This document shows, one piece after another, positions 586 to 42,301 of a DNA stretch of 64,000 bases. Origin of the DNA: Allomyces arbusculus (lineage: Eukaryota; Blastocladiomycota; Blastocladiomycetes; Blastocladiales; Blastocladiaceae). The first letter of the stretch is position 1; the number at the start of each line of letters is the position of its first letter. The notes under the pieces were generated by a model that saw only the letters and a list, made by a program, of their open reading frames with translations, searched no databases and had not been told where the DNA came from. A program made the translations under genes and the position numbers. The DNA is taken from assembly GCA_027604705.1 (NCBI GenBank), contig JADHYV010000059.1, forward strand, positions 1 through 64,000. The letters run 5' to 3'.

Positions 586-2041
586 TCACGGCTTGTTGTC
601 AGCTGGCTCTTTCAATGGGTTCCCAATCATTTCCAGAGAACGAAGCCCCGCTGGTAGATGAGCCGGCTTGCGTGTGCACTCGTTGAAGGGCAAAGGGAGT
701 CTGTGCAGAGTCGACGGCCAGGCGTTGGCCAAAAGCTCGAGATCCACATCGACAAGTGAACAGCTCTTGAGGCATAACGAGTGCAGACGTGGCGGCATGT
801 GCTGCACGAGAGCCTGCACGGCATCCGATTGGCCCATACCAGGCCATCGTTCAATGTGGAGGTCCTCGAGCGATACTGGTAAGCGCTTCAAGACTCGCGC
901 AAGGTTACTGCCGTTCGCCGTCGCGGCCTCCAGGGAAAGTCGGCGCAGAGTTGGTGTGATGGGGAGGCCGCGGCACATGGTCTCAGTCCAAGCTTTGAAC
1001 CGCACGATCAGCGCGTCGGTCGCTCGAGACAGAAACGCAACAATCGCTTCCAAGTCGTTGTCGCCACGATTATCGTAAAAATAAGCGCAGTCGAGATCAA
1101 GGAGTGCGACCGACACGGGGAAACTGGCAGCCAGTCGCGCTGCTATCTTAGAGTACTGGGAAAGGCATTCAACGTCAATGCGAGCGATACAAGGCCAGAC
1201 TGTGGTAATGCGTTCATAATGGTGTCAAGTTCCAGAAAGCCGAAGCAGTCAAGGCTCAAGTCCTTGAGGTTGGGGAGTCTCTGAATCACGCGAGCGAGCG
1301 TTTCACGAGCATTGACGGGAATTCCAGTTGTTTCCTCGGCATGCAGCTCCAACTTGGTCACGGAAGGGGGCAAATGTTCCAAGAGCACGCGAAGCGTAGT
1401 ACCGTCATCATCGGGGGAAAAACAACATCCATTGTGGTTATGCGACGCAAACTTGGCGGTATCAGTGCCGCGAAGCGGTGTGCCTCGAAAATTGAAGGCG
1501 CTGGAGTCAGATTTTGGAGTTCCAGTTCGACAAGTGTTGGCGGAAGCGTGGCAGTGCTCCAGAGACACTTGAGAATCATTGTCAAGCGTCGGCACTGCGG
1601 TGGAAGTGGAATTGCAGTATCGTTCATGTAAAAGTCGCGAATCTGGATCAGCGGCACGCGTAGAAGGGTCCAGGTGACTGAAGCGGTGACACGCTGGTCA
1701 TACAGTTGATTCGACACTGATGAGAGATTCAGGAAATGGCGGTCACTTGAGCGGAAGGGCAGCACTAGGCACACGTCCAGCCGATCTGATGCAGTGTCCA
1801 GCTGAGCAACGACAAATTGGCCCGGTTTGCGCCTTGGGAGGTCGACGATGTCCGGTAAGACAGGTCGGATCCGTTCCCAGCCCAAATGGACGTAGGATAG
1901 TCGGATCGCAGTTCGCAGGCATGGCGAGTAGAACGATGGTGCAGCAAGGGCAAGGTGCATCAACTCGTCCTGGGCGTAGACGCCCTTGAGGCTTTCGGCG
2001 ATGCGGAACAAAACAGTTTGCGGCAAGTTGTCGAGGGTCAT
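586..2041 (-). pseudogene. FLR1: broken F-box-like/LRR protein gene
   Basis: The start at 2041 reads MTLDNLPQTVLFRIAESL, the F-box-like opening shared with intact FLR8 and FLR10. It is followed by the family motifs LALAAPSFYSPCL and WTLLRVPLIQIR and then irregular LRRs such as LPPTLVELELQNL and MPPRLHSLCLKSCSL. Protein similarity passes through three reading frames. One shift lies near 1400-1410 (after VVFPPMM, resuming at LRVLLEHLPPSVTKLEL). The other lies near 1150-1165 (LTLNAF resuming at AARLAASFPVSVALLDLD). No donor/acceptor pair explains either change, so I read them as frameshifts. The frame stops at 586, earlier than in FLR8, so the C-terminus is also shortened. Sequencing error is the alternative explanation for the shifts. 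If ever active, the product would be an F-box/LRR type adaptor; that role is inferred from architecture. Confidence 0.8.
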
Positions 2042-2580
2042 TGCTGCTGCGTCGTGTTGGGGCAACAGGCATGCATGTCGTCCAAGGATGCAAAGACACA
2101 CAGCGCCAACTCAACAGCAGAGCCGAGGCGAATACTGTCATCCAATTTCGACTTGAGCTTGGACCACGACCTGCGCCTGAGTTTCCATATTCAATGCCTC
2201 TACGGCCAGCTTGACGTAAGAAATTTAGTCGGATCAATCATTAATAAGGACAGGGCGCCTTGTTTAAGCAGCCGCAATTGGCCCGTTTTCGTGGTGAGAG
2301 GAGAAAGGACGCTAAGACAAAGGCCCACGACATGGAGGTCGAGGACGAGCTTTATCTTTCATCTGAAGCACGACCAAGATGGGAGCCAGGAAGCGCAAGT
2401 TGCCAAAACCAGCACCCATTGTCGTGGTGGCCAATAGCCGTGGAAAGCATGGGCAAGATCCACTTGTTTGGAGCAGGGGCAGGAATGACAAAAAACCATT
2501 ATCAATTCTGTCGGAAAAGCTGAATTGTTTGCACTGAGCATGACAAAAGCCTCACATTTAATCACTCAAGACGCCATTCA
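2042..2580. other. no gene recognised between FLR1 and FLR2
   Basis: About 540 nt upstream of FLR1 and downstream of FLR2. No LRR-like or other recognisable translation was found on either strand. Confidence 0.4.
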
Positions 2581-3924
2581 TCACTTGAAAACCACATCAA
2601 ATTGCTCCTGCAGTTTCTCAACCACCGGAACGAGTCCCGTATTCCTGGAGTAGGGTGACCGTCACTTCAAGTACGCCTGTAGGGAGACCGAGTTCGGCAC
2701 ATGCTCCACCAGGATGGCTGCCATCCGCGCCTTTGGAGATCCTGGCGAAAGATCCAGCACCATCAGCGACAAAGGGAGTGCTTGCGTCATGCAACCAGAA
2801 CCTCGTCCGCAACGAATTTCCCAATATCAATAGCCATGACGCGGATGCCAGTTGGCACGTGCGGAAGGATTGTATCGAATCCGTTGCGCGATAGGTCCAG
2901 TCGACGAAGTGTGTCCGGGAGCACAAGGCTGCGAAAAGGTTGGGCGCTCACGTCGCATTTGATCAGCGCGAGATCGGTCAGTCGCGGCGGCATGTGCGCT
3001 TGGAGCACTGCCAGCGCCTGTTCAGGGATAGAGTGCCCGACCAGATCAAGCGTCGCAAGTGAGGCCGGGAGGCGAGAAAAGAAGTAGACAAGATGGTCGG
3101 CGATTTGCGGCGAGCAGCCCGGATCTGACCACACAGAGCGCACGCAGGATCGGAGCAAGAGACGCCGTCCTGGCCGTCTCTTCACTCCACTGCGGAATCG
3201 CAAGAACAAGGCTCTGGGTCGCGATGGGAAAGCGTGTTGGAACAAAGTTGGCTCGCAATTTCATATTGCCAACGGTCGTGGGCTATCCAACAGCAAAACG
3301 CACCAGGTCCTGGTCAGCCTCGTTATCTCGTGCCAGTTTTCGTCGTAACAAACCAGCTGCAGCAATTCCAAGTTCAGCGTGGCGAGCGTGGCGAGAGTGT
3401 CCCGTGGCAGCGCTCAAATGACCTCTTCCACGCCCGTGATGCCGTACACTACCAGCTCAAACGACACGAGCCCTGGAAGTCGACAGATAAGCGAAGCGAG
3501 CTGCGGCAGCGCAGTAAACGGCTTTTTATTGTCCATGGCGCAAACTGCAAGCGTCGTGAGTGTCGAGAGGACAATCGAAGAGTGTCTCATCCATCCGCTC
3601 CGAGTCTCCGTCAGGGAACGTGCTCTTCAGAGAAAAGCTGTGTAGTCGTGGGAGATCAGCAATGACATGGCGCACAACGTCAACCGGTGGTGCAAAACAA
3701 TTCCCCAGGTCGAGCTTGACCAAGGACCGCGGCAAGGCGAGCTCATCCCATCGATTGAATACCTCCCGGTCGAGACGAAATGAGCGGCAGTTTGGCGGTA
3801 CGACAAAACGCGGCTTGATCTCGTTCACCCTGGCATGCCAAACTTGGGACCAGGGAACCCGTACCAGCGACCAATGGCGCGACGCGACTTGTCCATACAG
3901 ATAATCACTCAGAGGCTGCTTCAA
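2581..3924 (-). pseudogene. FLR2: 5'-truncated, frameshifted LRR gene
   Basis: Homology to the FLR family starts inside the linker region (HWSLVRVPWSQV near 3850), so the F-box-like N-terminus is missing. The LRR part continues through several frames: LPRSLVKLDLGNCF, then SLAPILRALCVV near 3150, then LPASLATLDLVGHSIPEQ and MPPRLTDLALIKCDV, then LPDTLRRLDLSRNGF. The C-terminal helix block reads VLDLSPGSPKARMAAILVEH near 2740 and ends with KLQEQFDVVFK and a stop at 2581. At least three frame changes and internal stops separate these pieces. The 5' boundary near 3930 meets unrelated sequence. Its 3' blocks are closest to those of FLR4 and FLR3 within this window. Confidence 0.75.
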
Positions 3925-4189
3925 TGCACTCTTGGGTGAGTGTGGCGAGGGACTCCACGAGCGGTCCGCTCAGCGCGGCGGTAGATCCATGACTTCCGAG
4001 ACCGACCCCTCGAGAGCAGTCGTTCGAGCCGCGAGAATACTTTCATTTTTCAACATCAAAGGCATGTTCTGTTCGACCACATCCCGAACCTCAGCCAGCT
4101 GCTGAAGAGGTGTTTCAGGCTGGTCGGCCATGATGCCAAACGTGATGCAAAATCCGCGAACAACACCAACCATGGACAGGTACAACGCC

Positions 4190-4385
4190 GAAGCAACGCT
4201 AACCAGCGCAAACGAGAAACCGCGCCAACAAGAATTAGGTACGACGAGATACCGCGCCACAGGACAACGAGAACCGGCGTAAACGAGAAACAACGCCAAC
4301 GAGAACAGGCGCAACGGGAACCAACGCCAACGAGAACAGGCGTCACGAGATCCAGCGCCAACGAGAACCGGCGCATTACAACCGT
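4190..4385. repeat. degenerate minisatellite, CGCCAACGAGAACC-like unit
   Basis: On the plus strand, variants of a 16-22 nt unit built on CGCCAACGAGAACNGG recur about eight to ten times with indels, for example at 4290, 4330 and 4360. Units are too diverged for recent expansion. Confidence 0.6.
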
Positions 4386-4476
4386 GGAAGCCCAGCGCCC
4401 GAACGCACACTTCCAACACCAGTCCGCTACTTGAAGGAACAAACCGAGAAGACGCTACCAGTTGAACGACCGGGAC

Positions 4477-4990: not shown

Positions 4991-5075
4991 GCTGGCGAGA
5001 GAAGGGGTCGAGAGCCGCCCGTCTTGCTTGAATGGACTGGTTGTCAGCCATTTAGCTCATTGCTCCTCAACACAT

Positions 5076-5907
5076 TCAATTCCACGCCACATCAAACCGC
5101 TCCTGCAGCTTCTCCACGACCGGAAATAGCTCGTCATAGTTGTCATATGTTGCTTCACGTGCACTTGCAGAGCCAGTGCAGCCGGGATGTGTTCCACCAG
5201 AACAGCGGCCAATTGAACTGTTGGTACATCCGGCGATAGATCCAACACGCGAAGCGTTTCCGGTAGCGCTTGCGCCCAGGCAGCCACGGCCTCGTCTGCA
5301 ATGCCATCCTCAAACTCAAAGATCAGAAGGTGGACGCCGTACGGAATGCGCGGCAGATCCGTGATGAATGCGTTGCCCAACAGGTCGAGTGTGCAAAGCG
5401 TCAGTGGTAGGACCAGGTCGCGGACCCATGCCGTCGGCAAGTCATAGTTAGTTAAACAGCGCGAGCGTCAAGAGTTTCGGCGGCATGTGGGCCTCGAGCA
5501 CCGCCAAAACTGCCGCCGACATGGAAAAGCGTAATCGACGAGCTCAAGCGTCACGAGCGAGGCAGGAAGACGTGATAACAAGTGGGCGAAGTCGTCATTT
5601 TGCCACAGAAAACTCTCTGGGAAGGACTCAAGCCGCCGCAGAGCGCGTAGTGTAGGTGCCAGCGGGGCTGACTTGGCCAACCTGGGCCGCTGTCATGCAT
5701 ACCCCCCAAGGAGCGCAGCAACGCTGTACGAATGGCGACGCGAAGACTAGGTGCATACAGCTCCGGAGCCGGAGCCGCCAGTGCAAGATGCACCGGCGCG
5801 GCGCGGTCATCTGGCCCTCCAAGTGACAATTCGGCGACCCGGATCAGGACATCGTACGGGAGCTCGTCGAGGGGCTTTGGGTTGGATGGCTGCCGTAGGC
5901 CAGTCAT
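5076..5907 (-). pseudogene. FLR4: internally deleted F-box-like/LRR gene
   Basis: The start at 5907 gives an F-box-like N-terminus (LDELPYDVLIRVAEL, then APVHLALAAPAPELYAPSL). The linker and most LRRs are absent. After about 75 residues homology jumps to late repeats (LAPTLRALRRLE near 5650; LPASLVTLELVDYAFP near 5550) in a different frame. It then runs to LTLCTLDLLGNAF, LPETLRVLDLSPDV and the C-terminal helix LQERFDVAWN, with a stop at 5076. Total length is about 830 bp, against about 1500-1900 bp for intact copies. So there is a large internal deletion plus at least three frame changes. The C-terminal block AAVLVEHIPAALALQVHVK is very close to that of FLR2, which marks the two as a subgroup. 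Confidence 0.8.
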
Positions 5908-13044: not shown

Positions 13045-14215
13045 TTCCCAGTCAGAAAGTTGGTCATTGACGACCTTCCGCTCGACCGAATCGTGTTCCA
13101 GTGGTCAGTTGCCACGCTTGCGCTAAAAGATGTCGACTGCGCGACGTTGCCGTTTCTTCAAATTTTGCGACCGCTTGCGATAGTGCCCAATGCTGGTCGC
13201 AGTTGCTTTACCTCCGGAACCTGAAAGTGTCGTTCAAGCCCGATAACGACAAGCATTCAGTCCGCGTGGCCGCGACCAGACTCTTTCGCCTGGTTCCTCC
13301 CACACTCTCGTCGTTGGTTCTTCACCAGATCGCCAAAGATGCTCCCTTGGCTGCAGCTGGTCGCTCGCTGTGCTTTCCCTCGACAAATATCGAAGCGTTC
13401 GTGGTGTGACCGAGATTTTGGCCGCGTTGCCGCGAACTGGGTTTCCGCACTTGCATCTGACACTCAACGACAAGTTCACCTTTCAGTTGATCTACGACAG
13501 GCATAATGGCCTTCCTGAGCATGCCAAGCTTGCCGCCAGTTTCCCAGAATCGGTCAAGAGGCTCGAACTTTACTCGACGCTCTGACTGCCGCGCATCCCG
13601 CTGGTCACCGACGAGCTCATGATCGACTATGACGCCATGTGGGCCACTCTTGACCCGCTCCCGCTTTCTCCGACCCTGCGCCACGTTGTGCTGTTTGACG
13701 GATACATTCGCGTTGACGTGCACGTCCTCATCCACATCCTGCAGCACTTGCCCTCGTCGGTCACGCACCTCCACCTGCAAGGAATGGCTCTCACGAAGCC
13801 CGGGCTTGCGCACTCATGGCTTCAGCAGTACATGCCACCGCGCCTCGAGTCGGTGAGCCTGGTCAGGACGTCGCTCAGGTTCCCCAGTCTCGATTTCCAA
13901 CTTCCAGGGTGAGTGCCTTCCACCTTGCACGAACTGATTCTCATGGCAACGAGTTCCATACAAGCCTGTCCGATATCCCGCCTCGCTTCGCGTGCTCGAT
14001 TTGTATTGGTGCAACATGGAGGGCAATGGCGACATGCTGGCGCCCATCTTGCTCAACCAATTCCCTGTGCGGCTGCTGGGCCGCAAAGCGCTGATGCGTG
14101 TCGACAAGACGGTCTTGTCTCCTGAAATGCTGGCGCGGCTATGCGCGCAAAATGTGTGTTCGATTCCAAGCTGGTTCATGCCTCGTGTACTCGGCCGCAA
14201 CCATCCAGGCTGTAA
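13045..14215 (+). pseudogene. FLR5: 5'-truncated, frameshifted LRR gene
   Basis: Similarity to intact FLR10 begins mid-protein: KLVIDDLPLDRIVFQWSVAT resembles the FLR10 stretch around LPLDQLVFPQSTEKL. It continues through VPPTLSSLVLHQI, LPRTGFPHLHLTLND, AKLAASFPESVKRLELYSTL, LPSSVTHLHLQGMAL and MPPRLESVSLVRTSL to the terminal block (MLARLCAQ, then TRPQPSRL and a TAA at 14213-14215). At least four frame changes interrupt it, and an in-frame stop follows the LYSTL block at 13583. The F-box-like N-terminus and linker are absent. It converges end to end with FLR6. Confidence 0.8.
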
Positions 14216-14224: not shown

Positions 14225-14920
14225 TGGCCGTTTCGTAGTTCAGACACTATCAAAGTCGGTCACATCGTCCATGACCAGTTTGCGGAAGTCATGTGGAGCC
14301 CACAACGAGAATACCTTTGCGTGTGAGGGGTCCACCCCCAGCTCCTCCAAATACATGTAAACCAGCGTCGGTATCAGCACGAAATGGCGCCACTTTCAGT
14401 GCCGACAATTGACGAGAGCTGGCAGCGCGATGGCACAAGCACCGACGGGGCGTGTTTCGGTCAGTTTGAAGCAACGAAGCTGTCGAAACGGCACGCGTAA
14501 GAGAGAACAGGTCGCAGACGCTGCAACAAAAGGAAAGGTGATCATCCAAGGTTGATTGGGCATGGGAAGGAGGGGAGCCAAGGTGCAGTCGTGCGTGCGC
14601 ATGGGTAGCACCAGAAAGAACCCAACTTAATCCAACCCGCCCATCGAGTTCACAATATGAACGATGCGCCTAACATTGTCAAGACGCAGGAAAACCGTGC
14701 CGGTTGGAGAGGCTGAATCAAATTCCACGCCGTCCATGCCGTTTCCGAGCGAGACGCGCGCGGCGGACCGCAACATGCAGGCATGGCGCATAAAGAGATG
14801 GCGCGACGAGAGCGAGGTTCACCAGCGACCAGGTACAGCTGTTGTGGGAGACCTATAGGGCAGGACAGTCGATAACGACGTGCGGCAATCCGTCGAGCGT
14901 GGGGGTCAAGGGCGTGTTTG
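14225..14920 (-). pseudogene. FLR6: N-terminal half of a broken F-box-like/LRR gene
   Basis: Minus-strand pieces match the first half of FLR8 in order. LDGLPHVVIDC lies near 14910. VNLALVAPSLYAPCLHVAVR lies near 14815. MRTHDCTLAPLLP and the linker SLLRVPFRQLR lie near 14600-14480. LWAPHDFRKLVMDDV lies near 14260, and homology stops just after that. Several frame changes and a deletion of the region between the F-box-like motif and the linker are evident. Its truncated end abuts the 3' end of FLR5, which is in the opposite orientation. Confidence 0.75.
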
Positions 14921-15049
14921 TCATGATATCTATCGTGCCTTTGTGGGCATGTGTGCCCTGTGCAATGCATTGAGAACCGATGAGGAGAACGTCAGAAATG
15001 TGCGAGTTGTCTCCGCCAGAAAGGTGCGAACCCAAATCACGACACGGAT

Positions 15050-15962
15050 TGTGACCCCAAGTGCGACCTTGTTCATCTTGCGCGTGTCGCGCCCAACTGT
15101 TACATGCCAGCGCTGATCGCCGCTGTGCGGCATGCCGACCGGTTCAGTTTGATCGAACCCGATACACACGCTGGCAAGGCATGGACAATACAACGAGCAT
15201 ATAGTATGACTATTGCCGGTCGATTTGCTGGATGCATTGCACTTGATGTTCAGGGCCCGCGTATCCCTGGCCCAGACGGCTCGAGCGACCTCCAATGTAC
15301 TTGGTACTTGCTGTTGAGCGCAAATGAAAACACGAACGTCTCGTCTCGCTGGATTGTGCCACCGGACATGATCGTGCTATTTCCGTCAACAGCAATTCGC
15401 ACCATTGCGGTGATGCGTCTCAATGCATGGGAAATTGACTATCCCGTCCCCCCACACCTCGTCCAGATTGCAGTCAATAATCGCTTACTGAATGATCGGC
15501 CACAAGTTGGGCAGCTCGTTGCCCAACGTTCTTGGATCGCGGCGCCAACGCTTGGGTGTCCATGGCCATGTTCACATTACTCTTCTTCCCATAGCAACAA
15601 TTGCCTGCAGCTTTCCGCCGTCCATGCGTAACGTGTTGATTACCTCGCCAAAAAGGATCAATGACATTGACGCTGAGTTGCTTGCAAGCGCGCTCCCCAC
15701 ACGGATGCGACACGTGCGTCTTGTTGGCCTCGCTACTATGTTGCTCTCTTCGGGTGGGGTTATCTCCATACTGTCGCGCCTCCCTGCTGACCAGCTCGTG
15801 TCGCTGGACCCCAGTCACAACGGCCAAAGCGCCGAGTCGTTGCGTTTACTTGCGCACTGGCTGCGTCATCCCACACGGCTAAATATTCTGGCGGTGGACG
15901 GTTCATGTCATCAGGAACATTATGTCGCCCGAATTGTTTGCGCAGTTGCAGGCTTGCTTTGA
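15050..15962 (+). pseudogene. FLR7: truncated relative of FLR9
   Basis: From 15050 the plus strand reads LVHLARVAPNCYMPALIAAV and RHADRFSLIEPD, matching the FLR9 stretch LARVAPNCYMPAIAVAVRHV. Later blocks (ALDVQGPRI, WEIDYPVPPHL, INDIDAELLASALPTRMRHV, ILSRLPADQLVSLDPSHNGQ, LLAHWLRHPTRLNIL) also follow the order in FLR9. The F-box-like start was not found, at least two frame changes occur, and the frame ends at 15962, well before the length of FLR9. FLR7 and FLR9 form a subfamily distinct from the others. Confidence 0.75.
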
Positions 15963-16198: not shown

Positions 16199-17881
16199 TC
16201 ATGCTGTCTGCCTAAATAGCATTCCACACACATCAAACCGAGCTGCCAGTTGCTCACGGAACGGGTGATTGCGCCGCAAATTTGGGATCGCCATGCGACG
16301 CCAGGACGACTCCCACACGGGCATTCGCTCCAGCAGGGCAGACACTAAATTCTCACGTAACACCGCTCCGTCTAACTCAAGCTTGCTCAACCGTTTCGGT
16401 AGCGTCATAACCCACGTACGCGCGAGATTGTCTCGCAAAGGGTTTGCATTCAGGTTCAGGTGTTTCAGACCGCTGGGTAAGCCAATTGGACCTCGCTCAC
16501 AACGATTGTCCGACAAATCGAGTGAGATCAGCGTCGTCGGCCAAACGGGGTCAAGTACATCGAGGTCAGAAGCAACAAGACCGCAGTTAACGAGTGCGAG
16601 CGACTTGAGCCGCAGCGGCATGTTGCGTGCAAGAGCGTGCATGCGAATGTCCGCGTCTTCACGAAGCCAACAGCCGACCAACAGTTTCTCCAATGAGCCC
16701 GGGAGACGAGAGAAGAGTTGCGCAAGACTGTTGCTGTGCGCCGTGCGAAAATCGACAATGAGCTCACGCAGCGTTGGAGCCATGGGCAGTTTGCGGCACA
16801 TCGACGCTGTCCAATCAGAGAAGAACACGCGCAGCTTGTACGTCGCCAGCGGCAGAGACGCGGCAAGAAATTGAGCGTGCTCAGCCTTCAGGCTCAGACC
16901 GTCAAGAGCAAATGAACCGACCGAAGTCGGGAGGCTAGCCACGAGCTGTCCGACTGCTTTGCGATCCTTTTGGGCGTCCGTGGACGACCCCAGGGTCAAT
17001 GACAGTGAAGAAAATCCGCTGCGTGGCAACGCGTGCATGACCTCATCAAGTCCCGGCAGCCCAGAACCAACGCCGAGTCCGAGGTGCTTCAAGGAGGGGA
17101 GACGACGAATCAAATTGGCTAGGGCGACATGTTCCCATTCTGGGAGCCCATCCATATCTGGTCCCGCACAAGAAATATCAAGCGACGTAATGGTCGGTGG
17201 TATGCTCTTGATGAAAGCGGTCAGCAGCTCTCCGTCACCCGGGTCAACCACCTCCGACAAGGCCAGTTTGCGCAAGGAATGTGGGGTCCAGGCAAAGAAC
17301 GCGTTCATGAATGACGGCCCCACTTCCATATCACACAAATGCAACTCGGTGAGCGTCGACGGAAGGGCGATTTGGTTCCACGTGTCCGTGTAGGTCACCG
17401 ACAATCGCGCGCAAAATGGTGGCACCAGCAGCGACAGAGACTTGGGCAGAAACGCGCAAATATCCATGGCGCGAATCTGGGCAAGCGGCACCCGCAAGAG
17501 AGACCACGTGAAAGATGCTGCAACAGCTGGGACTTCCCACGAGCGGTCGGATTTGGGTGGCAAGGCGGCCATGGTGCGTTCGTGCGTGCGGAGAGGCAGG
17601 ACCAGAAAGCGGCCGATGCGATCCGATTCAGGGTCGGAGCTCAGAGCAACAAGCCGCCCCACGTCGTCTGGCTTCAGGTGAACCGTGTCGGGAGCAGTCG
17701 GCTTGATGAAACCCGCGACGCCAGTCACGAAGGAAGAGGAAGTAATGACGGCGTGCAGGCATGGCGCGAAGAATGACGGTGCAACGAGGGCCAGTTGGAC
17801 CGCCGAACCATGGCTGCTCATTGAAATCCGTTCGGCGAGACAGTTGAGAACGACTTGCGGTAAGTTGTCAAGGGTCAACAT
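16199..17881 (-). CDS. FLR8: intact F-box-like/LRR protein
   Basis: A single uninterrupted frame of 560 codons with no intron needed. Residues 1-20 (MLTLDNLPQVVLNCLAERIS) form an F-box-like helix. It is followed by LALVAPSFFAPCLHAVI and the family linker (LVLPLRTHERTM; FTWSLLRVPLAQIRAMDI, about 105-165). Residues about 170-500 contain around a dozen irregular LRRs of the type LPxxLxxLxLxxN, e.g. LPSTLTELHLCDM, WPTTLISLDLSDNRCERG and LPSGLKHLNLNANPL. The tail FREQLAARFDVCGML is a shared C-terminal helix. No signal peptide or membrane segment is seen, so it is probably cytosolic or nuclear. F-box/LRR proteins commonly bring substrates to SCF ubiquitin ligases, but the F-box match is weak and Skp1 binding is inference. 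FLR11 is the closest relative in the window. Confidence 0.88.
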   Translation of the reverse strand: MLTLDNLPQVVLNCLAERISMSSHGSAVQLALVAPSFFAPCLHAVITSSSFVTGVAGFIKPTAPDTVHLKPDDVGRLVALSSDPESDRIGRFLVLPLRTHERTMAALPPKSDRSWEVPAVAASFTWSLLRVPLAQIRAMDICAFLPKSLSLLVPPFCARLSVTYTDTWNQIALPSTLTELHLCDMEVGPSFMNAFFAWTPHSLRKLALSEVVDPGDGELLTAFIKSIPPTITSLDISCAGPDMDGLPEWEHVALANLIRRLPSLKHLGLGVGSGLPGLDEVMHALPRSGFSSLSLTLGSSTDAQKDRKAVGQLVASLPTSVGSFALDGLSLKAEHAQFLAASLPLATYKLRVFFSDWTASMCRKLPMAPTLRELIVDFRTAHSNSLAQLFSRLPGSLEKLLVGCWLREDADIRMHALARNMPLRLKSLALVNCGLVASDLDVLDPVWPTTLISLDLSDNRCERGPIGLPSGLKHLNLNANPLRDNLARTWVMTLPKRLSKLELDGAVLRENLVSALLERMPVWESSWRRMAIPNLRRNHPFREQLAARFDVCGMLFRQTA

Positions 17882-18654: not shown

Positions 18655-20142
18655 TCACGTCTTCACATCCCATCCATCCGCGACCCACCGCTCCTGAGCA
18701 TCTGCAAATGCCTGTGAGGAGATCGACAAATCGTTCCCCGTCACCAGCACGCGTGTCTGGGGCCGGTGTCTGCGGGGCGGAACAATATCTTTGAGCTTGG
18801 CCAAAATTGCATCGACTTGTTCCAAAACCAGGGACCCAAACCGCACGTCCAGTTCAGTCAGTGCCGGCCATCGCACGCCGCGCTGGTGCACGAGGGTAAG
18901 CGCGCCTGGCACGTCTACGCGTTTGAGCTTGGTGAAGCCAAGGCGCAGGACGCGAAGGGTCTCAGGTAAGACTGGAAGAAGCGCCTTCAACCACATTGCG
19001 TCACCACCCAGACGCGATACGTCCAGGGTTTCCAAGTACGGTGTCCGACCTGCCAACGTGGCAAGGGCAGAGGCACACTGGGTGCAGGAAAGCGAAAGGG
19101 ACCGCAAGGTCGCTGGGAGTGCGCCAAGAACCGCATTGATCGCATGAGGCTCGTCAGGAAAGACCATAAAATCGAGCTCCAGGTGCGTGAGTCGTTTCGA
19201 ACAGGCGAGCCACGATGCAAGCGCCGCTAGGTCCTGTGGCCAGAGATGGCTGCAACTAAGGTCGAGGGACTTGGTCTGGTCGGTAGGCAATGCGGAAAGA
19301 ATAGTGATGAACCCGAGAGGAGGCATTTTCATCTTTGCGAGCCGCAGCGAACACAACGCTGAAGGGAATGACTGCACGAGGGCCCGGGTCACGATTTCAT
19401 CCAAGTCCATGCTGTAAATTGTCAATTCCCACACGCCAGGAGGGATCCGGTGCAAGAACGTGCACAAATCACTCGGTGCGATTGAGACAGCTTTAATACA
19501 CAAGCGGCGCAGGGTGGCGGGCAGGTGGGTTGCAAGCAAGTTGGCTCGTGCCGTGTCGAGAGTAATGCCGTGAAGCTCAAGCGTCACGAGCAGCGGCGGA
19601 GCTGCATAGTCAAACTGCCACGAGACGGCAGCTTTCATGTGCCGGATGGAAGCGACCGGAAACGGGAGAGCCATACGGGGCGGAATCCCGTCCTTGAACG
19701 AGCCAGCGAGCACAAAATACATTGGCGGACGAGCAGTCTTGTGCTTGTCCATGACAAGTGGAGCGTGCGCGTCGAGGGCGAGATGCCCGGTCAGATCGTT
19801 GGTGCCCTGTAGCGCGCATATCTTGGTGACAATCCACGCACCGGGAACGTCGGGGTTGGATTTGATGAGGCAGAATCGGTTGACATGGCGCACGGCCACG
19901 GCAATGGCGGGCATATAGCAATTGGGCGCAACTCGCGCGAGCTGGGCGAGGTCATGGCTGGGATCGTGGGAGGGTCGGTTCGGTGGCCACTCGTTTGCAC
20001 GGGCAAGCAAGTAATCGCAGATGGCCAGGACTAGTTCCGAGGGCAGCGCGTCGAGCCTGGGGATGCGTTGGGTGGGCCGCCTGGCCGGTGCTACTGCGTC
20101 GCACGCGGCGATGCTGCGCCGATGGCGGTCGGCAGGCAGCAT
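18655..20142 (-). CDS. FLR9: intact F-box-like/LRR protein, divergent subfamily
   Basis: A single uninterrupted frame of 495 codons. The F-box-like motif RIPRLDALPSELVLAICDYL is at about residues 24-43, followed by LARVAPNCYMPAIAVAVRHV. The linker differs from FLR8 and FLR10 (ARPPMYFVLAGSFKDGI; SWQFDYAAPPLLVTLELHGI). LRRs run from about 190 to 460: LPATLRRLCIKAV, FPSALCSLRLAKM, LPATLRSLSLSCTQC, LPETLRVLRLGFTKL and WPALTELDVRFGSL. The protein ends DAQERWVADGWDVKT without the helix of the FLR8 type. No membrane segment is seen. Its start is 167 nt from the divergently transcribed FLR10. A SCF-adaptor-like role is inferred only from architecture. Confidence 0.85.
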   Translation of the reverse strand: MLPADRHRRSIAACDAVAPARRPTQRIPRLDALPSELVLAICDYLLARANEWPPNRPSHDPSHDLAQLARVAPNCYMPAIAVAVRHVNRFCLIKSNPDVPGAWIVTKICALQGTNDLTGHLALDAHAPLVMDKHKTARPPMYFVLAGSFKDGIPPRMALPFPVASIRHMKAAVSWQFDYAAPPLLVTLELHGITLDTARANLLATHLPATLRRLCIKAVSIAPSDLCTFLHRIPPGVWELTIYSMDLDEIVTRALVQSFPSALCSLRLAKMKMPPLGFITILSALPTDQTKSLDLSCSHLWPQDLAALASWLACSKRLTHLELDFMVFPDEPHAINAVLGALPATLRSLSLSCTQCASALATLAGRTPYLETLDVSRLGGDAMWLKALLPVLPETLRVLRLGFTKLKRVDVPGALTLVHQRGVRWPALTELDVRFGSLVLEQVDAILAKLKDIVPPRRHRPQTRVLVTGNDLSISSQAFADAQERWVADGWDVKT

Positions 20143-22486: not shown

Positions 22487-24156
22487 TCAAACAATATCAA
22501 ACTGTGTCGCCAACTGCTTGTGAAACGGGAACTTGGTGCCAAAATGGCTGATACGCACTCGGCGAAACAATGATGTCCGGCTCTTCATCCGCTCAAGCAG
22601 TGCTTCTGCCATTTCGGCTCCCATGCATGCGCCGTCGAGCTCGAGCTCGAGCTCATGTAGGCCAATAGGAAGAGTCATAACCCACTTGCGCGCATTCTTA
22701 TCCTCCAAAGGATTCCCACCCTTGCAGAGCCGTTGGAGGCTGTTGGGCAGGCCAATCGGGCCGCGCTCACAATTGTTGTCCCACAAATCGAGAACAAGCA
22801 GCGTGGCGGGCCACACACGATCAAGAATGTCCAGATCTGCATCAGCGAGGCTGCATTTCCGGAGCCGGAACGTCGTCAGCCGTGGTGGCAAGTTGCGAGC
22901 AAGAGTGCTCACATCAATGTTGGTCGATCGGCTTCGAGAGCAACAGAAGACAGTGAGGTTCTCAAGCGTGCTAGGGAGACGGGAAAAGATCGGGGCAGGG
23001 CCTTCGTCACTTGTGGTAAGAAACGACACCCCAAGCACACGGATCGTGGAGGCCAAAGGAAGTACTTGGCACATCAAAGGATTCCAGTGAAAAAAGGACA
23101 CGACCAAGTTATTCGTCGCGCACGAAATTGATGAGACGAGCATACTCGCGTGCACATTTTTCAATATCGAAACGGTCCTCGGCAGACTGTCTGCAAGCCT
23201 TGTCACAGCTTGGGTCACCCGCTGCTCATCACGGGATGCGGGCGCTTTTATGGTGAGCTCAATCGACGAAAACCCGTTGAGTGGCAACATTAGCATCACC
23301 GCGTCCCCCTTTGACACCAGAGCCCACATCAAGTCCAAGATTGGTCAGGGCTGGCAGGCGATAAATCAAGCGCGCCTGAGCCGCGAGCTGCTTACGCGAT
23401 AGCTTTTCAACATTCGCACAACGCAAATAAAGCCAAGTGATCGTTGATGCCAACGCCAACGAGACGAACAAGTCGAGCTTCTCCCCGTCACTGGCTAAAT
23501 GAAGATCAATGAACACCAAAGCGCGCAAAGATTGTGGGGACCAGGTTGAGAACGCGCGAATTAGCGAGAGATCTACCACCTGATCGATTATCCACAACGA
23601 AGTGAGGGTCGGCGAGAGCACAATGCGGCCCCACGCCTCATTGTTGGCAACCGCCAATTCCTGGCAGCGCGGCGGCACAGGCAGCGCCTTGGGCGTGGAA
23701 TCGTCAATATCAAAGCGGACAATCTGCTCGAGCGGCACGGGAAGCAGTGACCACTTCATTGACACTGCAGTGGGTGCGGCGCGAGCGAGCCATGGCCGGT
23801 CTGCTTTGGGCGGAATTGGTACCCCAGTACGATCATGTGCACGCAAAGGCAGCACGAGAGACGCGGTGTTACGACTCAAATCATGCCTGAGTGCATGGGG
23901 ACAAAGTCACCCACGTCTCCTGGTTGCAACAGAATGGCACCCCGAGCAATTAACTTGCAGCTCCAGCGGTGGGACTTCCGGGTAGAGACGTCACTCCGAA
24001 GGCACGCAGAGAAGACGCGAAGAACGATGGTGCGGCCAAGGCAAGCTGCAGAAGCGACCAAATATGAATACGATCAGATTCTGAAAGTTTTTGGGCATCG
24101 TTTTCAAGAACGACTTCCGGTAAGCTGTCAAGCGTCAAGGTCGAGCTGGCGTTCAT
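22487..24156 (-). pseudogene. FLR11: nearly full-length F-box-like/LRR gene with two frame changes
   Basis: The start at 24156 gives MNASSTLTLDSLPEVVLEND and LLQLALAAPSFFASSLRAFG. The frame changes near 23880-23990 and continues with SLVLPLRAHDRTGVPIPPKA and MKWSLLPVPLEQIVRFDI. It changes again near 23260-23340 and continues with LPLNGFSSIELTIKA, LPSTLENLTVFCCS, LPPRLTTFRLRKCSL and WPATLLVLDLWDNNCERGPI, ending KQLATQFDIV. Block order and length match FLR8 (also WPTTLISLDLSDNRCERGPI), so little DNA is missing. I found no donor/acceptor pairs with the right phase at the breaks. A young pseudogene or two sequencing indels are equally possible. Confidence 0.75.
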
Positions 24157-24980
24157 GGTGTTGGTCGTTCGAGACCGCTGAATGAGGTAAGAAAGCGAGC
24201 TTGAGTGAGATGAGGGCATGGGAGAGAGAGTGGATGGGAGAGAAAAGGCGGGGGTGCGACGGAGAGCCAGTCTTTAACTTAACGCGTGGCGTCCTTCGCC
24301 ACTTCAAGGGCCACGTCGAACAGAGGGAACGGGACTAGCCTGCTGCGGAAGGTCTCATTATATACAAGTGACTTCACGCAGTCCACGTCTTTTACTGTCC
24401 GATCTTTACTTTTCCGTCGTAGCTGTGAAGCTCTTATTCAGGGAGTGTTGGCAGGCCGATGAGAAGGGGTGGACAAGTGATGGATGGCTGCACGAGCGAT
24501 CGCTGGGGAAAACATGTCTCTGGAACCGTCATCGCAAAAGCAAAGTGCCAGAGCGAAACGGCACATCATAATGCAGAAATCGTGACCAAAAGCACAGCAA
24601 ATGATGGCACCCCAAGCTTCAAAATTGAGCTCCAATGCCGATGAAGTGATAAATCGGACTTGCGAAGGACAGCCTTAGTGCCTTGAGAACTGGGGGTACA
24701 GCTTGAGATGAAATTGGGGACTGCGACACAGGCGGCCGCGTCGGCTTGATGGTTCAACGATGGTCGGCGCAAACGGTCATGGTCGGATTGCAAGGCTGAT
24801 CACTTCAGCAACTGCTCATGAACCCCAACTTGTCGCATCTGCGCAATCTTTCCATGACCACGACGGCGCCGGAACAATCATAACCCCGCTGCAACGGCCG
24901 CTGCACACCAGCTCCACACGTACAAAACGCCAGCTGATCCCACCCTGTACGGCTGGCCACCACACAATCCTATCTCCACG
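24157..24980. other. divergent intergenic region, FLR11 / MFS transporter
   Basis: About 820 nt between divergent genes. A TATA-like TTATATAC occurs near 24358. No gene is recognised. Confidence 0.4.
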
Positions 24981-30169: not shown

Positions 30170-30741
30170 TCATTCAAAAATGAACTTGTAGTGGATGGGT
30201 GCGACCGGTCATGGGAAACTTGGAACCAGAACGCGTCCACCAGATCTAACTTGTCATGCAACAGTGCCAGCGTCTCGGCGCTCGCCGTCTCCTTGCAGGA
30301 GATCCGCAACTGGACGCGCCAAGCCCGACACGGCGACCGAATATTCAGGTGCTCGAGAAAAATGGCGGCGAGCAGGTCGCCAATGTCCGAGGAGCGGTCC
30401 CAATGCAGGTCCAGGACGCGCAGAGTCGGCGGAAGCGACGCGACCCACGCTGTCATGACCTCCACGCCGCCAGTATGGCGAAGGGCCTCGGCCACCGGAA
30501 CGGACAGAAAGCGGAACCTAAACAGGACGTCTGGGAGACCCGACTTTAAGTCGTTGCCGTACAGTTTCAGCTTGGGCAGCTTCGACGGCCACCGGCTTGC
30601 CAGGTGCTGGTCCATATCGGCCGCTGCCAGGTCGCAGAGAGTCAGACATATCGACTCGAGTCGGGGCGGCAAATTTTGCGCGAGCGCCGCGGTGTGCAAG
30701 CTGATGAGGGCAAACAAGTCGGCAAACGAAACCAAAAGCAT
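30170..30741 (-). pseudogene. FLR12: C-terminal LRR fragment beside FLR13
   Basis: The frame opens in the C-terminal third of the family (LAQNLPPRLESICLTLCDL, LPPTLRVLDLHWDRS, LALLHDKLDLVDAFWFQVSH) and matches FLR13 block by block (LPPQLESLALVYCDL, LPSSLRLLDLHWNRL, LRDKFDLVDANMVRVSYDR). The first two-thirds of the gene are missing. Near the end, one base of shift relative to FLR13 hides the ancestral stop at 30170-30172, so the frame stays open into the promoter of the next gene. It begins only a few nt beyond the FLR13 stop. A 5'-truncated tandem duplicate is the simplest reading. Confidence 0.8.
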
Positions 30742-30744
30742 CCA

Positions 30745-32547
30745 TTATTCAAAAATGCACTCTGTGAAGGACGGGTGTGGCCGGTCATACGAAACTCGGA
30801 CCATGTTCGCGTCCACCAAATCAAACTTGTCTCTCAACCGCCCCAGCATTTCGGCGCTCACCATGGACATGACGATCCGCAACTGGACACGTCGGGTCCG
30901 TCCAGGCACCTGCACGTTCAAATGCTTGAGCAAAATGGCCGCGAGCTGGTCGCCACCCGACAGCAAACGATTCCAATGCAAATCCAACAAGCGCAGCGAC
31001 GAAGGAAGCGACATAACCCACGCCGTCACCAGCCCTTCGCCACTGGTCTCCTGTAGCGTCTCGACTACGGACACGGACAGGGCGCGGATGCCAAACGGCA
31101 CGGCTGGAAGTCTCTCTTTGAAATAGTTGCCAAAGATGTTGAGCTTGCGCAGCGTGGCTGGCAACCGGCCCGTGAAATAGTCGTCCATGTTGGTCGCGGT
31201 CAAGTCGCAATAAACCAGAGCCAACGACTCGAGCTGGGGCGGCAGATGGTCACCAAGGACGATCAAGAGCCAGCCTGGGAGAGCGTTCTCGCGCACCTTG
31301 AGGTGCGTGAGCGACGTGGGCAAATGCATAAAGACATGCAAAAGCAGCTCCGTTTCGGTATTGTAGTCGTGGTTCGAGTACAGCTCGAGGCGACGGAGCG
31401 TGGGTGCAAATGGAAGCGGATCAGGCATCATCAACGTCTCCACATCGACCATGAGTGCGTGCGTGGCTAGGGGTAAGCGCGGCAAATTGAGCGTCGAATA
31501 AAACGAGAACTGGTTCACCGATTCAGGAAAACTTGCGGCAAGTTTGGCGTGAACGCTTTCCTGGCTCTCGCCTTCGTACTCGAGCTCAAAATTGTCGCGG
31601 TCGTAGAGCGTCACGTACAAGTGCCCAAACCCAGTTCGCGGCAGGGCGGACAAGACGGCAATCACGCCCTTGACGCTGCGCAGCGAGTCGAGCGTGAGCA
31701 TGGCTAGCGATGGCAGTTGCTGGACAAGATTAGCTGCTGCGCACAACCCCAATGTGCCAATTCCTTGCAGCGTGAGCGACGTGAGCGTCAATGGGATCAG
31801 GTCAAAGACAAGCTTGAGGGCGGCGGCTCCCTCCTTGGTAGTGGAAAAAACTGGACCAAACGTCACTCGTAGGTCGCGAAGACAAGGCAAAGCATGGGCA
31901 TCTGCGGCAGACCGATCATCACGTTCACCATGGCTTCTCAACGCAGACTCTGTCGATGACAACGCCATTTCGTCCATATGGAGAGCCAATTTCATGGTTG
32001 ACCGAGGGATATTCGGGAATCGGTCGCGCGACGCAGAAAAAAATAGCTGCAGGTTGGTGCATTGCGGCGGCACATAGCAGCTCTGCGCATCCAGGCCGAG
32101 GACGACTGCAGAGTATGAGCGGACCTGGGTTTCAGGCATCTTCAAGAGCGACCATTTTGATGACGCTGCGACAATGCAGAACTCGCTGTGGCCGTCCAGT
32201 CGAACAAGGGGTGCACGGTCTGGACCTCGAGGCACCAGCATAAAGCACCATTCATGCTCACTCGCTGCGGATCCTGTTTGCACGTTCACAACTTGACCGA
32301 CGCCAGTAATGTTGATTTTCACATCATCAGGTGCACTGGGCGAGAGTTGGGCCAGATCGGTGCGCGACGATAGCTCGGCAGTACGAATGGCGACGTGAAG
32401 GCTTGGAGCGTAACAGCTGGGGGCAGCAAGCGCGAGGTGCAGCACAGCGAGTCGATCGAACTGACAGAGGAACAAGGCGACGCGATGCAGAATTTCATGC
32501 GGCAAGTCGTTCAACTGCATTGGAATCATTGGGTGAGGATTGATCAT
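30745..32547 (-). CDS. FLR13: intact F-box-like/LRR protein
   Basis: An uninterrupted frame of 600 codons without introns. MQLNDLPHEILHRVALFLCQ is at about residues 10-30 and LALAAPSCYAPSLHVAIRT follows. Next is the linker (WCFMLVPRGPDRAPLV; SSKWSLLKMPETQVRSY) and about a dozen irregular LRRs (LPSLAMLTLDSLRSV, LPRTGFGHLYVTLYD, FPESVNQFSFYSTL, LPTSLTHLKVRENAL, LPATLRKLNIFGNYF, LPSSLRLLDLHWNRL). The C-terminal helix is LGRLRDKFDLVDANMVRVSY and the end is CIFE. FLR10 is its closest intact relative here, and FLR5 also shares KLAASFPESV and FYSTL/LYSTL. No signal peptide or membrane segment is seen. A substrate-adaptor role is inferred from architecture only. Confidence 0.88.
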   Translation of the reverse strand: MINPHPMIPMQLNDLPHEILHRVALFLCQFDRLAVLHLALAAPSCYAPSLHVAIRTAELSSRTDLAQLSPSAPDDVKINITGVGQVVNVQTGSAASEHEWCFMLVPRGPDRAPLVRLDGHSEFCIVAASSKWSLLKMPETQVRSYSAVVLGLDAQSCYVPPQCTNLQLFFSASRDRFPNIPRSTMKLALHMDEMALSSTESALRSHGERDDRSAADAHALPCLRDLRVTFGPVFSTTKEGAAALKLVFDLIPLTLTSLTLQGIGTLGLCAAANLVQQLPSLAMLTLDSLRSVKGVIAVLSALPRTGFGHLYVTLYDRDNFELEYEGESQESVHAKLAASFPESVNQFSFYSTLNLPRLPLATHALMVDVETLMMPDPLPFAPTLRRLELYSNHDYNTETELLLHVFMHLPTSLTHLKVRENALPGWLLIVLGDHLPPQLESLALVYCDLTATNMDDYFTGRLPATLRKLNIFGNYFKERLPAVPFGIRALSVSVVETLQETSGEGLVTAWVMSLPSSLRLLDLHWNRLLSGGDQLAAILLKHLNVQVPGRTRRVQLRIVMSMVSAEMLGRLRDKFDLVDANMVRVSYDRPHPSFTECIFE

Positions 32548-38821: not shown

Positions 38822-40693
38822 GGCGCAGCGCGGATCGGGTTCGAGCGGGCCAGGGCCGAGTGCGGGCAGTGTTGCCGGCCAGCAAGGAGGGACGGATGAA
38901 GGTAATGCAAGTGCCGCACGAGGTCGGGCGGGGGATGTCGTTGGACAAGTTGGCCCGGAATGGAGCGACAAGGAAGAGCGCGAAAGTGGCGGCACGCGAT
39001 CGCTCTCGAGTGCGCCAGGCACTTGCCGCTATGACACGTGCGTGCTGCACGTCAAGCGCTTCTTTTGGCAGGCGCCATGCGAACGTGCATGGACATGGGA
39101 ACGATGCTGGCTGCCAGGCTGGTGCGCGCTGACCGCTTGCCTTGGAAAAGTTGCTGCTCAACCACGCTTCATGCTGACATCTCAACATCTCAGCACAGGA
39201 TCACGTCGATGATGCGCGCTTCACAACCTCGGCAGCCGCGGGCTTCTGCTCGTCAGCGCGGGGAACGGCTTCGTCGAGACCGTTTTGCCAGTGCCACTGG
39301 CGGATAAATGATGGCTATATCTCAATGTCAATTTTAGCGAGCGTTACGCACTTACCAGCGAGTGAGAGAAGGCCAAAATGTGCAGACTGTGGGCTCGTGA
39401 AGGAATAAATGCCATTTTCATTGATTCTCCACCCACGTGCTGTGACCGAACCAAATTCGAAGGCAATACGAAGCAGCTTGCCAGCGACTGCGGCCCCAAG
39501 CAGCATGGCGTGCCTGATTCACTGTCGGTGAGCTGTAATGAACGCCCATTATTCATTAAATGACTTGGAAGCATGAAAGCTGTCCAGTTCGTTACCAGGA
39601 TATGGAGAGACAGGGTAGATTCGCGTGCCTTCTACCGCCAGAGAGCGTGGATGCATATGTAGGCCACAACATGGAAGTCAGATTCGATCGAATGATGACG
39701 TGACACGCGCGTTTTGTGCTTTTCCTCATGCAAACAGCCACTGCCGCCCACAGGTACGCTTTGATGACACTGCTGAGCATTTTCCACTATCGGCGCTGCT
39801 TTGCTCGGCCGTGATTTGTGGGATTATGTACGTTGTGTTGCACGTCACTTGGTCAGGTCAAAACCAGCGACATCCAACAGAGCGGGCGCAAACGCTGGCG
39901 ACGTGCAACCTTGACAGAATGAAGAGCCCGACCCGATTCCGGCCGAGGGTTCTTGTGTCTTCGTGTCCATGATCTCAAACAGATGTGTAAATCTTGGTGC
40001 TTCGTTCATTGCGCCGGGTGAAGTGATCCATGATGCTGTTGTCAGAGATCTCATGTGCCAGACTTGTCGAAAAACCGACGACTCAATGATTTAGATGCTG
40101 TGGCGGAGTATTGCAAACTTGAGTTTTTGTTCGCTCACCAGTCCTCGATGCAATATCGTCACCACACGCAACACATGCAGGAACAATGTGTGCAAAAGAA
40201 GACGACAATCCGCAGGGCCTTCTTATTGAAAACTGTATCTCAATCGTTCAACTACTAACTTGGCCCTGCCACTGACTGTCCACGGCAAGCTGAAAAACCG
40301 CCATGTTGTCTTGATTGACCAAATGCGCCACCATACAAGAGCGCGAAGGCTATGTTTTTGTGATCATTTTTCTGCCAAACACACCGGTAACAAAGGCCAA
40401 TGCGGAGAGGGATCAATTGAAGGCATTTTCATCAACATGATTGTCGCAACGCAGAATATGAACAGCAACCAAAACATAACATTACTAGAAAATGATAAAC
40501 CAGCGACTATTTGCACGGCGACGATGCTCCTCGGCACGAACCAACTTAACATCAATCGCGTTTGCGAGGAACTCGAGCGCCACCTGGGATACGAACCGCT
40601 CCCCGACGATCACTCAAATTTTTCTCTGTGCAGTGTGCGTTCGCATTTGCTCAGCGAGCCAAACCACATTGTCGTTTGCCGTCAGCAGGCCGT
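38822..40693. other. 1.9 kb without recognised gene
   Basis: Upstream of the RasGEF gene and downstream of FLR15. It is noticeably less GC-rich than the coding regions from about 39300 on, and open frames are short. No LRR-like translation, tRNA or transposon motif was found. It probably includes the RasGEF promoter. Confidence 0.45.
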
Positions 40694-42301
40694 TCATCGT
40701 GAGCGTCTCCATTTCCCGTAGTCCATGAACTTCAGGCCCAGCATGCTCTCCACGTCCAGCTTCCACACCGCCAAGAGCGACTCGGCCGGTGCCGGCGCCA
40801 CAAGATTCGTGTTGCTCACATCCAAATGAAGCAAGGTCTCAGGCCACGTCGTCGAAATCGCGTCCAGTTCGCCGTTTGAGATTTCGCACGAAAGCAGCTG
40901 CAAAACGACGAGACGCGGCGGCATATTCTGTGCAAGTGTGGGAATGGCTAGTGTCCCACCAAGCCGCACGTTCCGCAACTTGAGGTGCGTGAGCGACGCT
41001 GGAAGCCGCGCCAACAAAGACGCAATGTTGTTGCCGTCAATAGTAGGTCCTCGCTCACGCGAAATATCGACCGACGTGAGCGTCGGCGCAATTGGAATCG
41101 AGCGAAAGTGGCCTGCATCCATCACCGCATCAAAATGCAGAGTCAGGGAACGGCTTGCAACTGGCAGACCATTGATGAACGACGCCACGTCCAGCGTGGA
41201 CATGTTGGTCAACTTGAACACAAGTGAATCAACAGCAGCCGGCAGTGCCGACGCAATCTGGGCACAAGTAGACGGGTCCTGGCCGTTGCGATGGTGGATC
41301 GACAAAGTGAGCCGTTGCAAACCAGTCCGCGGCAGCGCGTACAGGACCCGGGCGAGTTCCGGGTCGTCATGGCAGGTCATGTTAAATAATTTCAGCCGCG
41401 GGAGACGAGCGACGAGCCATGCAAGCGTGGGCAGTGCAGATAAAGGAAGTGGATTTGAGCCGCTCGTGGTCACTAGCTCGAGCTCCTCCAGGGTGTTGGG
41501 CACGCATGCCAAGACTGCGGACCATGGGCACAGCTGCCTAACTTTGTTCCCGTCGCGGTCACGGTCTGATTGACTGCTCGGCCCGTGCCGATCATAGTAG
41601 CCCGTGTTGGACAAGTTCAGCTGCCGAAGCTTTGGCGGCAGCGACGAGAGGACCAGAAGCGGGTCGATGATGGCCGACGTTTCCACTTTCGAGAAGACCT
41701 CCAAGTTACGGATCGACAGCTCCTTCAGCGAACGCGGGAGGCCACTGAGTCGGCGCCAAGGAAACCAATCTTTGGAACGGCCGTCAAATTGCAGTGAACG
41801 ACACCCTGGCGGGAACGTAAAGATGGGCGACTCGTCGGTCACGACGAACCGACCACGAATCTTGCCAAAGTGCACGGGTAAAACTGTCCACTTCCGTGAT
41901 ACTTGAATCGTGTCGCGATTCCCGTTCTGAACTGGCGCCCGGTTGTCGTCGCGAGGTGGCAGAATCAGAAACAGCTCAGGTTCACGATTGCCAACGACTT
42001 CATCGAACACGGCAAACCGTCCAGTCATTTTGTTTTGGACGCTGACCAAGCCATCATCACAGAGCTGTACCCGGACGACTGGGTGCTTCGTTCCGCCGTG
42101 AATCGCAACCTCCAAACAAGTTGCATACAAGTGTGGAGAAGCGAGCGCCAGATGCACGGCAGTCGAGGGCACTTGCTGGTTGGGGTCGTCGTGAAACCGC
42201 TGGAGCGCCTTGGCAATGCATCGAATAACGTCGTCCGGCAACTTCTCAAGCGTTGATGCTTCACGCGCCCACCGCTGCCGCAAGCAAAGATCAGTAGTCA
42301 T
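40694..42301 (-). CDS. FLR15: intact F-box-like/LRR protein
   Basis: An uninterrupted frame of 535 codons without introns. STLEKLPDDVIRCIAKALQR is at about residues 16-35, then AVHLALASPHLYATCLEVAI. The linker (LFLILPPRDDNRAPVQ; SRKWTVLPVHFGKIRGRFVV) and LRRs follow: LPRSLKELSIRNLEV, LPPKLRQLNLSNTGY, VPNTLEELELVTTSG, LPRTGLQRLTLSIHH, LPASLTHLKLRNVRL, MPPRLVVLQLLSCEI and WPETLLHLDVSNTNL. The C-terminal helix of other copies is replaced by a short basic end (DYGKWRRSR), so the last repeats may have been lost without harming the frame. It is the most isolated full copy, about 8 kb from the nearest other. No membrane segments. Function as for FLR8 is inference. Confidence 0.87.
   Translation of the reverse strand: MTTDLCLRQRWAREASTLEKLPDDVIRCIAKALQRFHDDPNQQVPSTAVHLALASPHLYATCLEVAIHGGTKHPVVRVQLCDDGLVSVQNKMTGRFAVFDEVVGNREPELFLILPPRDDNRAPVQNGNRDTIQVSRKWTVLPVHFGKIRGRFVVTDESPIFTFPPGCRSLQFDGRSKDWFPWRRLSGLPRSLKELSIRNLEVFSKVETSAIIDPLLVLSSLPPKLRQLNLSNTGYYDRHGPSSQSDRDRDGNKVRQLCPWSAVLACVPNTLEELELVTTSGSNPLPLSALPTLAWLVARLPRLKLFNMTCHDDPELARVLYALPRTGLQRLTLSIHHRNGQDPSTCAQIASALPAAVDSLVFKLTNMSTLDVASFINGLPVASRSLTLHFDAVMDAGHFRSIPIAPTLTSVDISRERGPTIDGNNIASLLARLPASLTHLKLRNVRLGGTLAIPTLAQNMPPRLVVLQLLSCEISNGELDAISTTWPETLLHLDVSNTNLVAPAPAESLLAVWKLDVESMLGLKFMDYGKWRRSR

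Follow-up and report, generated by a model that had tools for sequence, protein, structure and literature searches.

An F-box is a three-helix domain of 40-50 residues starting with LP, and an LP at the first helix is its hallmark. In the FBXL receptors TIR1, rice D3 and Skp2, an F-box is followed by a solenoid of leucine-rich repeats (LRRs). Certain F-box families of nematodes and plants have been proposed to act in conflict. The plant F-box superfamily is described as rich in pseudogenes, of tandem origin, under relaxed purifying selection and subject to genomic drift (PMC3030570). In Dictyostelium, one account predicts 38 Skp1 interactors to be F-box-like once insertions between the helices are allowed, with receptor domains that are mostly LRRs, FNIP included (PMC9485057); FNIP repeats are described as 22-residue units with an FN motif (PMC9525666). 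Here we analyse FLR, an F-box-like/LRR gene family of the blastocladiomycete fungus Allomyces arbusculus (assembly GCA_027604705.1), starting from 64,000 nucleotides of DNA, hereafter the window (positions 1-64000 of contig JADHYV010000059.1, or C59, 112,726 bases), and extending to the genome of 25,903,786 bases in 197 contigs. FLR appears to be a lineage-specific expansion of the known F-box/LRR kind, with readable decay. A literature search on F-box/LRR proteins in Blastocladiomycota, chytrids, Allomyces and early-diverging fungi, which left most subscription journals uncovered, found no paper on this family.

FLR is a large gene family

Profile clustering resolved 14 FLR copies or fragments in the window, on both strands:

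604..2053, minus strand: FLR1, broken copy in three frames with 2 frameshifts; covers profile positions 36-522
2820..3891, minus strand: broken copy; 3 frameshifts and 2 stops
5144..5680, minus strand: C-terminal fragment; 3 frameshifts
5716..5889, minus strand: N-terminal (F-box-like) fragment, perhaps one locus with 5144-5680
13191..14150, plus strand: broken copy; 3 frameshifts and 2 stops
14258..14840, minus strand: N-terminal half, broken by 3 frameshifts and 2 stops
15032..15914 (profile cluster 15059-15914), plus strand: FLR9-subfamily fragments; 35% identity over FLR9 53-194 and 32% over 219-329
16199..17881, minus strand: FLR8, intact, 560 amino acids; single open frame
18655..20142, minus strand: FLR9, intact, 495 amino acids; single open frame
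20310..22220, plus strand: FLR10, intact, 636 amino acids; single open frame; one FNIP repeat (186-216) above the Pfam cut-off
22496..24225, minus strand: FLR11, nearly full-length, broken; 3 frameshifts; 47% to FLR8
30235..30693, minus strand: FLR12, C-terminal fragment free of frameshifts and stops, lying just downstream of FLR13, to which it is 53% identical
30745..32547, minus strand: FLR13, intact, 600 amino acids; single open frame; 44% to FLR10
40694..42301, minus strand: FLR15, intact, 535 amino acids; single open frame

An earlier note on this DNA had counted 15 copies or fragments on both strands, five uninterrupted and ten not. Both strands and the five intact copies stand: FLR8, 9, 10, 13 and 15 are single frames of 495-636 amino acids spanning the family profile (at C59 16220, 18676, 20325, 30805 and 40790). 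The broken copies come to nine instead of ten, with 5144-5680 and 5716-5889 possibly forming one. FLR9 is the most divergent of the intact window copies, its nearest intact copy being at 27% identity, and the three best relatives of its subfamily elsewhere in the genome all contain stops.

Genome searches with single copies, which give lower bounds, returned 72 places for FLR10, 80 for FLR8, 82 for FLR15 and 15 for FLR9 at E<=0.001. A fifth query, from contig C6, revealed a second large branch. The iterated family profile, run over the joined fetched loci, gave 117 clusters (3 scoring <15 were left out of the listing), among them 39 full-length open frames of 495-729 amino acids; 38 of these entered the sequence sets, in which some frames are clipped at a locus edge and one copy that spans two loci is omitted. 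Twelve further candidates lie in unfetched places, each combining an open frame of 589-703 amino acids with one stop-free match of >380 residues:

C5:280375, C15:8743: found with a window-copy query
C10:221529, C24:72087, C31:193344, C6:141120, C6:230640, C6:289374: found with the C6 query
C6:294478, C6:319559, C9:146767, C9:225984: found with the C6 query

The genome is thus likely to hold about 51 intact FLR copies. The expanded family that the earlier note had described in the window is real and far beyond chance. No relative of FLR10 was found in phages, viral contigs or prokaryote genomes, four phage records giving at best E 0.5 over 72 residues; pattern searches in viral and prokaryote sequence, which reach close relatives only, yielded pattern matches and no confirmed relative.

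Predicted architecture and comparison with known F-box/LRR proteins

A structure of FLR8 was predicted from an alignment of 14 sequences of the window (predicted local distance difference test 84.2, predicted template modelling score 0.80). In the model the LP is followed by three helices (residues 9-22, 24-33 and 35-48), after which come a beta block at 51-142 and, at 159-531, an LRR solenoid built of long repeats with convex helices, at a spacing of mostly 21-33 residues. The family consensus runs from an LP/DVL start through HLALAAPxLYAPCLxxAIR, YLxLPPRxxxR and WSLLPVPxxQxR to the LRRs, and its two middle motifs fall inside the beta block. A profile of 38 copies matched the PDB entries 3wpe_A (E 1e-19), GALA protein 9j7j (E 3.8e-16), Crov588 (E 2e-14) and TIR1 (E 3e-6). 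Foldseek placed TLR7/8, TIR1 (E 4.7e-7, template modelling (TM) score 0.42), rice D3 and ribonuclease inhibitor among the best matches of the FLR8 model, with TM-scores of 0.19-0.53. On this evidence the C-terminal two thirds of FLR is an LRR solenoid with LxxLxL strands. The predicted three-helix N-terminus and the solenoid stand in the order known from F-box/LRR proteins, which bears out the architecture proposed in the earlier note. Of the two outcomes which that note had said would speak against it, we found neither only a handful of copies genome-wide nor predicted structures devoid of both an F-box-like fold and an LRR solenoid.

FLR shares with the FBXL receptors this domain order and the LP at the first helix, and TIR1 and D3 are found by Foldseek with the FLR8 model. 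It differs in the conserved block of about 90 residues that separates the F-box-like region from the LRRs, in F-box scores below the Pfam cut-offs and in an insignificant match of the N-terminal model to Skp2 (see below). The beta block has no known relative, and a 160-residue N-terminal model gave no Foldseek match at E<=0.001. A named domain for the block was considered and rejected: the 12 matched Pfam families comprise nine models of LRR, FNIP or F-box type, and each of the remaining three matches a single copy.

With the F-box proteins of Dictyostelium and giant viruses that carry FNIP/IP22 repeats (Crov588 and mimivirus relatives), FLR shares an F-box-like N-terminus and LPxxLxxLxL repeats, and a structure search of BFVD gave a list headed by FNIP and F-box proteins of giant viruses. 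FLR8 differs from them in its mostly 21-33 residue spacing and in having no FN; the 39 copies together contain 22 FN. A Pfam FNIP match at E<=0.1 occurs in seven of 38 copies and is absent from 31. We do not place the family with FNIP/IP22 proteins, as FLR10 alone among the five intact window copies exceeds the FNIP cut-off, and with a single repeat. The GALA protein, a bacterial F-box/LRR protein of a Ralstonia family, stood in the fourth row of the PDB profile search. Its best stretch covers profile positions 403-552, LRR only, and gives no evidence of common origin with FLR.

The N-terminus resembles a divergent F-box

Across 38 N-termini, the proline is invariant and the leucine is present in at least 90%; the three predicted helices behind this proline fit the size and LP start of an F-box. 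The commonest Pfam matches of these N-termini are three F-box families (5, 4 and 3 copies; ten different copies), all matching at the beginning of the profile, with a best E of 8.5e-4 at 19.6 bits. When the FLR N-termini were aligned by hhalign with 16 F-boxes accepted in this genome, the probability was 68% and E 4.8e-5, and the real score exceeded 200 of 200 column shuffles both locally (23.0 against a maximum of 16.4) and end to end (19.3 against 12.5). From the predicted helices behind the proline, the F-box families topping the Pfam matches and the shuffle-beating alignment, we infer that the FLR N-terminus is a divergent F-box. The predicted Skp1 interactors of Dictyostelium, F-box-like once insertions are allowed (PMC9485057), provide a precedent.

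Several results weigh against this identification. The Pfam F-box cut-off was reached by none of the 38 N-termini (at best 19.6 against 20.5 bits for PF00646 and 14.8 against 24.3 for PF12937), and 28 of them had no F-box match at E<=1. The hhalign match is secure over 18 columns only, its probability being 8% when the alignment is forced end to end. No F-box chain in the PDB was matched by the N-terminal profile, and in the Foldseek search of the N-terminal model the first F-box protein, Skp2, ranked 37 (E 2.7, root-mean-square deviation 3.5 over 56 columns). A genome search with PF12937 alone located 51 other F-box-like places at E<=0.01, 40 of them above the cut-off, and by inspection none coincides with an FLR place. 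Seven F-box-like places, six above the cut-off, lie together on one contig (C64:46-104 kb), apart from the FLR family.

Broken copies and duplication history

Seventy-five of the listed clusters are not full-length. The 52 with a score >=60 were each aligned to their nearest intact relative by a procedure aware of frameshifts and introns; one of them, C6:295525-296223, is a locus-edge artefact of the intact copy C6:294478-296142, so that the broken set is 51, with 48 carrying a frameshift or stop. Over 17,780 codons, the alignments of the 52 revealed 122 frameshifts and 56 stops, along with a single intron-like event, of 40 bases; a frameshift or stop is present in 48 of the 52, two or more breaks in 38 and a lone break in ten. 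Applied as a control to the 39 intact copies (21,176 codons), the same procedure yielded 6 frameshifts, 1 stop and 2 intron-like events, confined to five copies, so the alignment itself can account for a lone break in a divergent copy. As a set, however, the breaks are real: the broken copies are mostly pseudogenes, not intron-split genes, and introns were rejected as the cause of the broken frames (one intron-like event against 178 frameshifts and stops).

Nearest-relative identity among the 39 intact copies is 24-77% at the amino acid level (median 37%), with none closer than 77%. In the fetched loci, no FLR-to-FLR DNA match of at least 200 bases exceeds 87.0% identity. Matches above 80% that hold FLRs are C11:126-4410/C147:8650-14476 (85-87%) and the intact pair C30/C120 (83%); the former is a segmental duplication carrying broken copies. 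Copies younger than these could have been merged into one in the draft assembly. For 18 of the 39 intact copies the nearest relative lies on the same contig, against 4.9 in shuffles, which argues that the expansion arose partly by local duplication, apparently of old date. A subtelomeric location was rejected: nine of 39 copies lie <10 kb from a contig end, where a uniform spread over the same contigs predicts 5.8; this enrichment is weak, and contig ends are not telomeres.

We further compared the ratio of nonsynonymous to synonymous differences (pN/pS) between broken and intact copies, omitting pieces <60 codons and pairs <35% identity. The values were 0.63 and 0.61 at 35-45% identity, 0.54 and 0.55 at 45-55%, and 0.42 and 0.44 above. 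Since broken and intact copies are so similar at equal identity, inactivation probably came late, after long constrained divergence. Of the fast birth and death suggested in the earlier note, death is evident in the many frameshifted or stopped copies, whereas recent birth is not, given the median nearest identity and the DNA ceiling above.

Selection on intact copies

The eight closest paralogue pairs gave ratios of nonsynonymous to synonymous substitution rates (dN/dS) of 0.26-0.41 (NG86) or 0.24-0.61 (YN00). Pooled over these pairs, dN/dS was 0.15 for the LRR core leucines, 0.24 for the F-box, 0.29 for other LRR positions, 0.35 for the convex helices, 0.45 for the beta block and 0.48 for the concave LRR positions. 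No class of positions has a pooled dN/dS >1 in these pairs. A diversifying concave face was suggested by comparison with all convex helix columns (p=0.026) and rejected, as the difference was gone without the mostly hydrophobic columns (p=0.83). Diversifying selection on LRR surface positions, for which the earlier note had suggested a test, was thus not found. These tests compare paralogues only, by a crude counting method; except in the closest pairs synonymous sites are almost saturated, so weak episodic selection could escape them. The ratios indicate relaxed purifying selection with a constrained framework. We count the 39 long open frames, kept at 24-77% nearest identity, as a sign of kept function. 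Third-position G+C is 0.64 in FLR codons and 0.71-0.90 in six neighbouring frames.

Proposed function and rival explanations

The genome contains one Skp1 place and several cullin genes of the SCF machinery. We favour, with moderate confidence, a reading of FLR as a lineage-specific set of F-box/LRR substrate receptors for SCF ubiquitin ligases, one that drifts while purifying selection on it is relaxed. The three-helix F-box-like domain would dock on the single Skp1, which would link FLR to the cullin-RING core; the LRR solenoid, with a dozen or more repeats, would hold a substrate, a different one for each paralogue, and the substrates so held would be ubiquitylated. Family size and dead copies would then reflect old local and dispersed duplication, relaxed constraint and ongoing loss, that is, genomic drift. 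The size and decay of FLR match the drift described for plant F-box genes, likewise marked by many pseudogenes, tandem origin and relaxed purifying selection, and conflict is not needed to explain them; FLR differs in that no near-identical recent duplicates were seen among the copies examined.

Should FLR instead serve as a conflict repertoire, its LRR faces would bind foreign, selfish or non-self proteins and the F-box would mark them for destruction. The family is large, clustered, variable and partly dead, giant viruses encode structurally similar F-box/FNIP proteins, and the concave positions have the highest pooled dN/dS among the LRR classes, reaching 1.01 in one of the eight pairs. Yet no class exceeds 1 when pooled, concave positions show no excess variability over convex helix positions outside the mostly hydrophobic ones, and the fetched copies include no young, near-identical ones, so a role in conflict, itself inferential, seems rather unlikely to us. 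It is more speculative still, and doubtful, that FLR, carrying a beta-rich linker module of its own, accounts for perhaps half of the genome's F-box proteins and serves as a standing defence against selfish elements, viruses and non-self proteins; we know of no such F-box-based defence repertoire from the zoosporic-fungus lineage.

The sub-threshold F-box scores and the lack of a significant structural match for the N-terminus would also suit LRR scaffold proteins whose N-terminal helices only look like an F-box and lack Skp1 binding. This we judge unlikely in view of the shuffle control, the invariant proline with three helices and a domain order that is that of F-box/LRR proteins. Highly improbable is the explanation that introns or assembly errors account for the broken copies; the family would then be larger and healthier than it appears. 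Other genes here do seem to bear introns (the RasGEF frames; cyclase and cullin domains split over adjacent pieces), and three of the ten broken copies with a single break are near full length, on C42; against this stand the near absence of intron-like events among the breaks, the seven breaks in the whole intact control and the multiple breaks of most broken copies.

Neighbouring genes and other observations

G+C in the window ranges from 0.54 to 0.73 per 2 kb, which agrees better with the values given for two Blastocladiomycota (56 and 61.6%) than with those for two chytrids (44.9 and 47.6%; PMC8371127). FLR neighbours in the window, which the earlier note had taken for single-copy housekeeping genes, include phosphodiesterase (PDE), RasGEF and M1 peptidase domains. 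On the minus strand at 33197-39022, a RasGEF N-terminal motif and a RasGEF catalytic domain lie in two successive frames and probably belong to a single gene interrupted by an intron near 36.1-36.2 kb. A major facilitator superfamily (MFS) transporter gene at 47517-48456 (47.5-48.8 kb), by contrast, is related to tandem copies some 20 kb further along the contig, at C59:68929-72970, two of which share 82% DNA identity. An 18-base tandem repeat of 14.8 copies at 61690-61955 encodes the threonine/proline-rich (DPPKTT) part of a 647-amino-acid frame with a likely membrane segment, judged by eye. Runs of ten N at 11552-11561 and 55475-55484, close to extreme poly-G/poly-C stretches, are probably assembly gaps at hard-to-read sequence, so gene models there are unsafe.

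Elsewhere in the genome, two rhodopsin genes (C7:515350-516887 and C15:369892-371433) have guanylate-cyclase pieces immediately downstream on the same strand and are likely to represent two CyclOp photoreceptor genes, a light receptor reported from Blastocladiomycota, Sanchytriomycota and Chytridiomycota (PMC9616733). Together with the G+C of the window, this is in keeping with a flagellated fungus, probably of Blastocladiomycota.

Implications

As a set of SCF substrate receptors, FLR would show degradation adaptors expanded as in plants or nematodes, here in an early-diverging flagellated fungus. Its dead copies are still readable, so this compact genome lends itself to studying how substrate receptors turn over and are lost. 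Should the copies vary from strain to strain, this would point to an unexplored recognition system.

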